Positions 32,981 to 35,007 of a stretch of 64,000 nucleotides of DNA are shown piece by piece. The stretch is from Microtetraspora fusca (lineage in GTDB: Bacteria > Actinomycetota > Actinomycetes > Streptosporangiales > Streptosporangiaceae). The first letter of the stretch is position 1. Every line of letters begins with the position of its first letter. The DNA is taken from positions 106,201-170,200 of the forward strand of contig NZ_BBYK01000038.1 in the NCBI RefSeq assembly GCF_001570365.1, read 5' to 3'. The notes beneath the pieces are model-generated. The model saw nothing but the letters and a program-made list of their open reading frames with translations, was not told where the DNA came from and did no database searches. The position numbers and the translations under genes were made by a program.

Positions 32981-33631
32981 CTATCGCTCGACCAATCTGA
33001 GCACGCCGTAGTTGTAGCCGCGCCGGCGGTAGACGACGCTCGGCTGCCCGCTCTCCTTGTCTCTGAAGAGGAAGAAGTCGTGCCCGACGAGCTCCATCTC
33101 GAGCAGAGCCTGGTCGATGGTCATCGGGTCGGCCTCGTGGAACTTCTCCCGGACGACGAGCGGCCCCTCGCCGTCCATCTCGATCTGTACGATCGGTTCC
33201 TCATACGCAGTCTGCTGCGGGACCTCGGTCCGGGGCTCAACCTGGGGCGAGGGCTCGGTGACCTCCGGTATGGCCTCGCCCAGTCCGGCGGTGAGGACGC
33301 CCACTGAGGGCGGGCAGCTCTTCCCGTGATGGATCTTGCGCCGGTCCGCAAGCTTGCGCATGCGCGCCTCCAGCTTGCCCAGCGCGAGGTCCAGCGCCGC
33401 GAAGCGATCGTCCGCCGCGGCCTCGGCGCGGATGGCCGGGCCTCGGGAGCGGACCGTCAGCTCCACGCGTTCCCGCTGATCGCTCATCCGAGGATTCCGC
33501 TCCTTGGACACTTCCACGTCCGCCCGGATGAGCCGGTTGTCCAGTCGCTCGATTCTGGCCAGCTTCGTGGTCACGTGCTCACGGAATCGGTCACTCACAC
33601 CGGTGTGCCGTCCCTTGACGATGATGTCCAC
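32981..33631 (-). CDS. hpf: Ribosome hibernation promoting factor, long form
   Basis: Long HPF of 216 residues that dimerises ribosomes into inactive 100S particles in stationary phase or stress. N-terminal domain (1-100; VDIIVKGRHTGVSDRFREHVTTKL, RAEAAADDRFAALDLALGKLEARMRKLADR in parts) binds the 30S decoding centre; an acidic/proline linker follows; the C-terminal dimerisation domain starts at about 155 (VREKFHEADPMTIDQALLEMELVGHDFFLFRDKESG in parts). GTG at 33631 is preceded by AAGGGGGGC. A structured leader lies upstream. Confidence 0.95.
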   Translation of the reverse strand: MDIIVKGRHTGVSDRFREHVTTKLARIERLDNRLIRADVEVSKERNPRMSDQRERVELTVRSRGPAIRAEAAADDRFAALDLALGKLEARMRKLADRRKIHHGKSCPPSVGVLTAGLGEAIPEVTEPSPQVEPRTEVPQQTAYEEPIVQIEMDGEGPLVVREKFHEADPMTIDQALLEMELVGHDFFLFRDKESGQPSVVYRRRGYNYGVLRLVER

Positions 33632-33739
33632 GCAAAAGCCCCCCTTCGCATCTCGACTGTGATGGAGAGCGCAACGCGCTCGCGGCACCCGTCCGGCCGA
33701 CCTGGTCTTCGTCCCCACATCCGCCTGCTGAGGGTTTCG

Positions 33740-33960
33740 CAGCTCTTTGCCACTAGCGCCCTTCTCTCCTTGCGGGGGACATCTGGACCCCCGGGAAGGC
33801 AGGACTTACCTCTAAGCCGCACCGTGATCGGACGACCAAGAGTCGCCTTACGTGGACCGTTTCGCCTGCGGCTGGCATCGGCTAGCAGAACCGGCCCCCT
33901 CAAGGGGGTCGATCCGGCGCAACCACGGACCCGAACGGGTGCCATGTCCTGAACGCTAGT
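33740..33960 (-). ncRNA. Putative structured RNA leader of hpf (raiA-RNA-like)
   Basis: Read on the minus strand, ACTAGCG (33960-33954) can pair with CGCTAGT (33758-33752), extendable by two G-U pairs, closing a 209-nt segment. Inside are several local hairpins, including ACCCG-TT-CGGGT, a CCCCC/GGGGG stem at 33895-33908 and a GGCGAC/GTCGTC stem near 33840. No gene fits here. The raiA RNA class, known upstream of raiA/hpf genes in Firmicutes and Actinobacteria, has about this size and location; membership is inferred and not tested. Confidence 0.55.
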
Positions 33961-34188
33961 CGCTGCCGGGCCGAATGTCAGCCGCGTGTCCCGCCGATTG
34001 ATCACAGCCGGTGACCTCCAGGGGGATCCGCCCTCCGCGCCACCGGTCCGGCGCGGACGGTTCACCCCTGCCGCACAGGGGTATCAGTGCCCGCTGAACA
34101 GGACTTCCTGTCCATCACGGACCAAAGTTGTGGCATCGGACACAGGGCCTGGATCGATCGTTTCTTTACCCTCCGTCAACCGCGTGAT
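33961..34188. other. Gap between comF and the hpf leader
   Basis: About 230 bases with no supported gene. It presumably holds the hpf promoter. The sequence here is somewhat less GC-rich (for example around 34140-34185) than the genes beside it. Confidence 0.4.
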
Positions 34189-35007
34189 CTATGTCTCCCC
34201 GGCGTGTCGCGCCGCCGGATTCCGGTCCCTGGCCCGGGTTCTCGGCGTGGCGGCGACGGTGATCGCCAGCGGCACCTCTGCGCCGGCCTCCCGTACGGCG
34301 CGGGCCGCCTCCGCGAGGGTCGCGCCGGTGGTGACGATGTCGTCGACCAGCAGGACGGCGCCCACGCGGCCCCCAGAGGGCCGTGCAGTGCCGGTACGGC
34401 CGGGGACTACCACGAATGCGTCCCGCAGGTTGGCGGCCCGCTGCGTGGAGCTGAGGCCCGCCTGGTCCGCCACCCGGCGGCCCTGCCGCAGCATCGGCGC
34501 GGCGGCGACCGGAAGCCCGCGCCGCCGCAGCAGTTTCGCCGCCCCGGACGTGATCACGCCGACTGGGTCGTGGCCGCGCCTCCGCGACGCGGCGCGGGCG
34601 CTGGGCACGGGCACCAGGGCGATCTGGCCGGGCAGCGCGCCCCGAGCCGCGGCCGCGGACCGCCCCGCCGGCCCGCCGCGTTCGGCTCCGACGCGCCCCG
34701 TGTCGACGGAGGGACGCCAGGCGTGGGCCGCGAGGGCGCTCTCCGCGACCTCGGCCAGGACCGCCGACAGCAGAGGAGCCAGGGCCGTACGGCCGCGCTC
34801 CTTGTAGGCCAGCAGGACACGGCGGGCGGCGCCGTCGTAACAGGTCGCCGACCAGCACTCGGGCAGGTCGGGAGGAGCCGGGTCGGGTGGGCGCGGCGCC
34901 GGCTCGCGGAGGATCTCCTCCAGGCAGAGCGGGCAGACAAGCGCGCCGGGCTCGCCGCACCCGGCGCAGCGGGGCGGCAGGACCAGGTCGAGCAGGGCCG
35001 CGAGCAC
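34189..35007 (-). CDS. comF: ComF-family phosphoribosyltransferase-like protein
   Basis: ComF-like protein of 272 residues: an N-terminal zinc-finger-like segment (CAGCG ... CPLC) followed by a type I PRTase fold with the PRPP loop VLLVDDIVTTGATL. Related to competence protein ComFC/GntX; in actinobacteria the role is unclear. A disordered Pro/Ala-rich insert separates the domains. GTG at 35007. It follows lpqB by 94 bases, as usual in actinobacterial mtrAB-lpqB loci. Confidence 0.85.
   Translation of the reverse strand: MLAALLDLVLPPRCAGCGEPGALVCPLCLEEILREPAPRPPDPAPPDLPECWSATCYDGAARRVLLAYKERGRTALAPLLSAVLAEVAESALAAHAWRPSVDTGRVGAERGGPAGRSAAAARGALPGQIALVPVPSARAASRRRGHDPVGVITSGAAKLLRRRGLPVAAAPMLRQGRRVADQAGLSSTQRAANLRDAFVVVPGRTGTARPSGGRVGAVLLVDDIVTTGATLAEAARAVREAGAEVPLAITVAATPRTRARDRNPAARHAGET

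Follow-up and report, generated by a model that had tools for sequence, protein, structure and literature searches.

The raiA RNA that lies upstream of hpf in the window (the whole stretch of Microtetraspora fusca DNA that was analysed, 64,000 nucleotides) probably serves as a translated leader: ribosomes likely load at an ATG at its 5' end and read through the whole stop-free RNA so that hpf is expressed, a reading to which we give a probability of roughly 0.6. What we observe is the RNA family, the fixed ATG or GTG, an avoidance of stop codons that is confined to the start frame, the absence of constraint on the amino acids, and the decay of start and open frame where hpf is missing. The transcription start site, leaderless translation, a single transcript of RNA and hpf, their coupling and its reason are what we infer. 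The likely novelty is a start codon followed by a stop-free frame through a known RNA, both tied to the presence of hpf.

A preliminary description of this stretch, placing a structured RNA at 33740-33960 in front of hpf, had suggested that it might be a raiA RNA, and the covariance-model search supports this identity. Minus strand 33939-33688 matches RF03072 over its full length (cmscan, 152.3 bits, E 5.5e-38, model positions 1-209 of 209; the Rfam gathering score is 101.3 bits). This is the sole covariance-model match in the window and the single raiA RNA copy in the whole 9.02-Mb genome. The proposed boundaries did enclose a real structured RNA, but they missed about 50 nt of its 3' end. 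On one strand the gene order is comF, raiA RNA, hpf, with both usual neighbours of raiA RNA (comFC and raiA/hpf) present, and the 557-base gap between the two genes (33632-34188) is as first described. The hpf gene is 91-94% identical to the hpf of four named Microtetraspora species or strains; its domain search used the translation from 33634, and the GTG start was assigned by reading the sequence. Pseudoknots pk-1 and pk-2 appear in the cryo-EM structure of raiA RNA, according to PMC11751092. The elements concerned are as follows.

34189 to 35007, minus strand: comF-like phosphoribosyltransferase gene, upstream of the RNA (PF00156, E 1.1e-07).
33688 to 33939, minus strand: raiA RNA, covariance-model core (RF03072, cmscan).
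33684 to 33945, minus strand: the whole RNA as used here, with its predicted 5' end at the start codon and P1 lengthened outward by GGCA/TGCC (P1 pairs, covariation).
33883 to 33919, minus strand: P2 insert hairpin (stem covariation, columns 29-35/78-84), variable in length by species with a stop-free frame nearly always kept.
32981 to 33631, minus strand: hpf, long type, with S30AE and S30AE C-terminal domains (PF02482, E 8.9e-20; PF16321, E 3.1e-24) and a GTG start at 33631.

The helix that closes the RNA is P1, formed on the minus strand by GGCACCCGTTCGG (33943-33931) and CCGGACGGGTGCC (33696-33684), and it shows two-sided changes among relatives. Over the whole RNA, compensatory changes on both sides of a pair were found at 19 of the 79 consensus pairs in 30 family sequences, among which many core pairs are invariant and so uninformative on covariation. 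The preliminary description had instead closed the domain with ACTAGCG and CGCTAGT. Both 7-mers exist, each once in the window on the plus strand (ACTAGCG at 33752-33758, CGCTAGT at 33954-33960), but as a stem they lack support. The gap holds 10 inverted pairs of 7 bp lying 20-300 nt apart, and Markov-simulated gaps, of which 500 were made, average 11.8, which puts the number at chance level. On the minus strand the letters 33960-33954 read ACTAGCG and share bases with the predicted -10 box TAGCGT (33958-33953). Since the RNA is predicted to start further downstream, at 33945, ACTAGCG is not expected inside it. The pairing is perfect in none of 125 distinct family sequences, at least 19 of which have no P8 mark for comparison; the window, in which it is perfect, is not among the 125, since over the stretch compared it duplicates L002, which stands for it. 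With these 7-mers at chance level, outside the predicted transcript and not conserved, a cis-regulatory leader that they would close has next to no probability.

Within the family of the source genome, Streptosporangiaceae, the raiA RNA is present in 145 of the 150 genomes searched. Its spread is patchy in the sample of class Actinomycetes (76 of 296 genomes, 28 of these Streptosporangiaceae), and the phylum sample yielded it in 137 of 396 genomes. It lies directly upstream of hpf, as had been proposed, in 61 of 62 close hpf loci, the 62nd (L040) being uninformative since its sequence starts only 152 nt before hpf; at distant hpf loci the count is 0 of 13. From 239 recognised sequences, 41 duplicates over the compared stretch were dropped and 198 kept, the window being represented by L002; four sequences from outside the class (L114, L120, L121 and L123) failed the anchors and were excluded.

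At its 5' end the RNA carries a putative promoter and start codon, in this arrangement.

33976 to 33981, minus strand: predicted -35 box CTGACA (the pattern recurs upstream of the RNA among relatives).
33953 to 33958, minus strand: predicted -10 box TAGCGT (alignment and recurring pattern), the one overlapped by ACTAGCG.
33943 to 33945, minus strand: ATG with which the RNA is predicted to begin, a putative leaderless start codon 7 nt past the -10 box (conserved as ATG or GTG).

The pattern CTGAC(A/T), 17 or 18 nt, TA(G/A)CGT, represented in the window by CTGACA, 17 nt, TAGCGT, precedes the RNA in 61 of the 62 sequences, L063 being the exception. Of 172 distinct sequences from class Actinomycetes, 171 carry ATG or GTG at the start of the RNA (158 ATG, 13 GTG), against 0 of 26 in other classes of the phylum. 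A TANNNT motif precedes the start codon by 6 or 7 nt in 218 of 232 sequences, and the ATG or GTG is therefore predicted to be the first codon of the transcript. The raiA RNA of class Actinomycetes would thus open with a leaderless start codon. A later test set comprised 81 loci, reduced to 60 new distinct sequences by removal of 21 duplicates. Our prediction, written before this sampling, that more than 95% would have a start codon failed overall (51 of 60, ATG or GTG); outside family f106 the figure was 41 of 42.

From this start codon a reading frame runs through the RNA.

33595 to 33945, minus strand: leader reading frame of 116 codons, open through the RNA and ending 37 nt inside hpf (translation; stop avoidance across relatives).

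One of the three frames meets a TAA in the RNA core, within CACGUAA; the variable P2 hairpin sits between start and core, and its length sets the frame. Among the 172 sequences, 147 and 24 lie in the two open frames and a single one in the stop-bearing frame, and this one, L236, has CTG in place of the start codon. Parsimony on an hpf tree of 157 sequences (15 of the 172 have too little hpf and were left out) gave about 52 changes in P2 length but only 12 changes of frame class, whereas random assignment of frames to lengths gave a mean of 29.9 and a minimum of 15, with 0 of 500 trials as low as 12. All 24 sequences in the second open frame have A at the base that could complete a TAG immediately ahead of the core; in the first open frame, where this TAG is harmless, CTAG or TTAG occurs in 82 of 147. 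The test set behaved as predicted on both points, with a stop-bearing P2 length in 1 of the 51 sequences having a start and A at the would-be TAG in all 4 second-frame sequences. An earlier and stricter statement, that P2 always keeps one frame (93 of 93 at first), was given up when the second allowed frame appeared under wider sampling; as the claim now stands, P2 length avoids the stop-bearing frame.

We also compared the frames segment by segment in 212 sequences that have a start and lie outside family f106. No stop interrupts the start frame in 212/212, 208/212, 207/208, 202/207 and 200/202 cases, against 301/424, 203/424, 186/416, 76/414 and 398/404 open cases for the other two frames, the fourth pair of values (202/207 vs 76/414) being that of the P6-P8 part and the last being uninformative. 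A thinned set of 103 sequences behaved alike. Over the 45 nt past the last anchor, the values are 186/200 for the start frame and 347/400 for the others. By this comparison, selection for openness covers the RNA and is not seen past it. Could the start codon and the open frame be accidents of a GC-rich conserved sequence in an ordinary non-coding raiA RNA? The core is strongly conserved for structure, stops are scarce in GC-rich DNA and the peptide is without amino-acid constraint, all of which would suit such an origin. Yet stops often close the two alternative frames of these sequences, the 12 frame changes in about 52 length changes fall below the null minimum of 15, the base at the would-be TAG never deviates from A (24 of 24), and start and openness decay where hpf is absent; an accident is therefore unlikely.

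The traverse is not absolute, as indicated by seven hpf-bearing loci in which the frame closes near the 3' part of the RNA (L060, L190, L205, L212, L217, L227 and L235). In four more, the frame closes early or the start is lost although hpf is present (L191, which has an N, L236, L317 and L329), so that strict openness or the start is broken in 11 of 213 hpf-bearing sequences. In family f8 (L224, L246-L250, L252, L253, L334, L335 and L338), the stretch of the raiA RNA between CCACGUAA and GUAAGUCC is enlarged, and the leader frame shifts yet stays open across it. Direct stop/start translational coupling to hpf was considered and set aside: the raw counts show stops enriched within 60 nt of the hpf start (128/202 vs 145/404), but this is not significant after thinning (29/55 vs 45/110, p = 0.18), only a 90-nt cut giving p = 0.008, and the hpf start in relatives is an alignment estimate whose query began one codon before the GTG.

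The open frame also prompted us to consider a dual-function RNA, which would code as well for a small and very basic protein active at the ribosome in its own right. The start is indeed conserved, the frame is open for at least 66 codons in most sequences, and the product is arginine-rich. However, in 72 disjoint close pairs the share of synonymous change hardly differs between the frames (0.313 in frame vs 0.291 and 0.316 in the other two), with change spread evenly over the three codon positions, which indicates no amino-acid constraint. Moreover, different clades use two different frames and hence unrelated peptides, no conserved stop codon was found in the family (the frame ends anywhere between 453 nt upstream and 693 nt downstream of the estimated hpf start), and the leader peptide has no Pfam or NCBIfam match. 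The codon test and the use of two frames led us to reject the small protein, and we regard this explanation as very improbable. The preliminary opinion that no protein-coding gene fits the gap was thus right as to a conserved protein and wrong in so far as a stop-free frame from a predicted leaderless start spans the RNA. A protein search with the leader peptide returned 80 database proteins, mostly unnamed or "hypothetical". Four of them (P0018, P0059, P0063 and P0073) carry an HPF domain, the leader frame running in frame into hpf; these HPF proteins with an RNA-derived N-terminal extension may reflect mis-annotated starts.

The start codon and the openness of the frame depend on hpf. Start and openness (to within 65 nt of the last anchor) are kept in 209 of 213 sequences with hpf downstream, against 2 of 16 without (Fisher test, p = 4e-17, relatedness uncorrected); with strict openness, the values are 202 of 213 and 2 of 16. 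The feature is thus kept with hpf and lost without it. The sequences are related, with about 5 hpf losses on the RNA tree, and across our comparisons relatedness is corrected only in part. L332, with a sequence that stops 112 nt past the RNA, was excluded when hpf was counted. A PF02482 search of the 18 genomes with no hpf behind the RNA (the 16 plus G928 and G922), 9 of which are at least 90% complete, found no such domain in any of them, and in sister genomes of family f106 PF02482 lies beside the RNA in 6 of 6. Within family f106, start and openness hold in 5 of 6 sequences with hpf and in 1 of 12 without (p = 0.004), at similar base composition (L300 and L303, which failed an anchor, are counted here and are absent from the segment tests and the 213/16 table). 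Two hpf-less loci, L197 and L311, still have start and open frame intact.

The hpf-less raiA RNAs remain full-length matches above the cut-off and retain a -10-like box, and in family f106 the RNA and its predicted promoter are kept while the start triplet drifts to ACG, CTG, TCG, CCG or CAG. This bears on another explanation, in which the start would be fixed for the sake of the initial transcribed sequence or of P1, translation would be an unwanted by-product, and stops would be avoided as terminating ribosomes would harm the RNA. It is in keeping with the P1 GGCA that directly follows the ATG, and with the point that any 5' ATG or GTG may be translated in actinobacteria (PMC4633059). But the triplet is dispensable for both promoter and RNA, given the drift in family f106, and start loss accompanies hpf loss, which leaves this explanation quite improbable.

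The loci at which the RNA is kept and no HPF domain (PF02482) was found are L197-L200, L298, L299, L301-L304, L306, L309, L311-L313, L315 and L328. This retention implies that the basic function of the RNA needs no HPF; it appears that the RNA has a function of its own, independent of HPF, and that it is the open frame that depends on hpf. The earlier proposal of an RNA partner of ribosome hibernation hence needs a limit, as the RNA persists in genomes that gave no HPF domain.

A U-tract follows the RNA in 7 of 213 sequences with hpf, in 7 of 16 without and in 13 of 26 outside the class; such scarcity at hpf-bearing loci is expected if these read through into hpf. It also argues against a non-stop decoy, that is a discrete RNA with a start but no stop, on which 70S ribosomes would load and stall on entry into stationary phase, to be parked or rescued. 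In 202 of 213 hpf-bearing sequences the frame stays open beyond the last RNA anchor, and openness is not selected past the RNA, both of which would agree with such a decoy. The U-tract that would end it is rare at these loci, however, and loss of the feature coincides exactly with loss of hpf, which a decoy acting in trans would not require; we consider the decoy distinctly unlikely.

Around the RNA, several other elements caught our attention. Upstream, CCACAACTTTGGTCCGTGATGG (34133-34112, minus strand) resembles a DosR/DevR-type box; if real, it would connect both the RNA and hpf with control by hypoxia or stress. A possible small hairpin contains the ribosome-binding site of hpf, GAAGGGGGG (33649-33632, minus strand), and several relatives have a different flanking stem around a similar G-run. 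A pairing of CCCCCUU in P2 with this ribosome-binding site, noticed by eye, was dismissed because the P2 sequence is too variable. A terminator hairpin at 33681-33667 was likewise dismissed as a conserved element, as it occurs in the Microtetraspora rows alone and has no U-tract.

Returning to ribosome read-through, which we prefer, the raiA RNA in Actinomycetes would be the 5' part of the hpf message, and ribosomes would have to pass through it. With an untranslated structured leader of 260 nt, hpf would be open to decay or to early termination, for instance by Rho, and a ribosome running through the leader would protect the hpf message, which is the reason we favour. Leaderless starts can be used by undissociated 70S ribosomes, so that hpf output would track the supply of free 70S ribosomes. 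It is these particles that HPF stores, and a ribosome bound by HPF would no longer load, which would create a feedback loop. One might thus speculate that the 70S sensor and the Rho step are the reasons for the arrangement. In its complete form, the proposal is that the raiA RNA acts as a ribosome gate for hpf: 70S ribosomes would load at the 5' start, traverse the open frame and permit HPF synthesis, and HPF would then remove those ribosomes, the RNA having an older hpf-independent function besides. This complete form is tentative, and in our estimation doubtful. The folded RNA is predicted to have a separate, HPF-independent job, and translation would disturb its fold, a point that counts against read-through.

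Our data separate two things, a basic job of the RNA that is independent of HPF and a ribosome path that is selected to be open where hpf follows in Actinomycetes. A structured RNA can be kept translatable without encoding a conserved peptide, and testing the length of a variable helix modulo 3 could be extended to other actinobacterial leader RNAs. If ribosomes read through the RNA, hpf output would be tied to translation; if the whole proposal is true, a conserved "non-coding" RNA with a known three-dimensional fold would also be a translated, sequence-agnostic leader that measures idle ribosomes.

In leader-ORF attenuators and ribosome-protected leaders (trp, Rho-linked), translation of an upstream frame decides downstream expression. 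The likeness is that translation of an upstream frame would decide whether hpf is expressed; unlike in these systems, we see no conserved regulatory codons or stop position, and the RNA through which the frame runs is a family in its own right, about 260 nt long. The mycobacterial leaderless transcripts (Shell et al. 2015, PMC4633059) have an ATG or GTG at the 5' end and no Shine-Dalgarno leader, as is predicted here; those cases are protein genes or small ORFs, whereas here the frame spans a structured RNA and the peptide is unconserved. A literature search that stopped short of the founding papers of the motif found no earlier report of a leader frame in raiA RNA, and PMC11706538 contains none of the words "open reading frame", "ORF", "coding potential" or "leaderless". 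The closest known relative is the raiA motif RNA of Clostridia, or ModT (RF03072), which is of the same Rfam family and fold according to the covariance model. In 74% of cases comFC lies upstream of it, and in 66% raiA follows (Soares et al., quoted in PMC11706538); both likewise flank the RNA here. ModT is described in PMC11706538 as an abundant, discrete non-coding RNA with intrinsic terminators that acts in trans. In contrast, the RNA studied here has a predicted leaderless start, is kept stop-free, lies near hpf, and rarely bears a U-tract when hpf follows.
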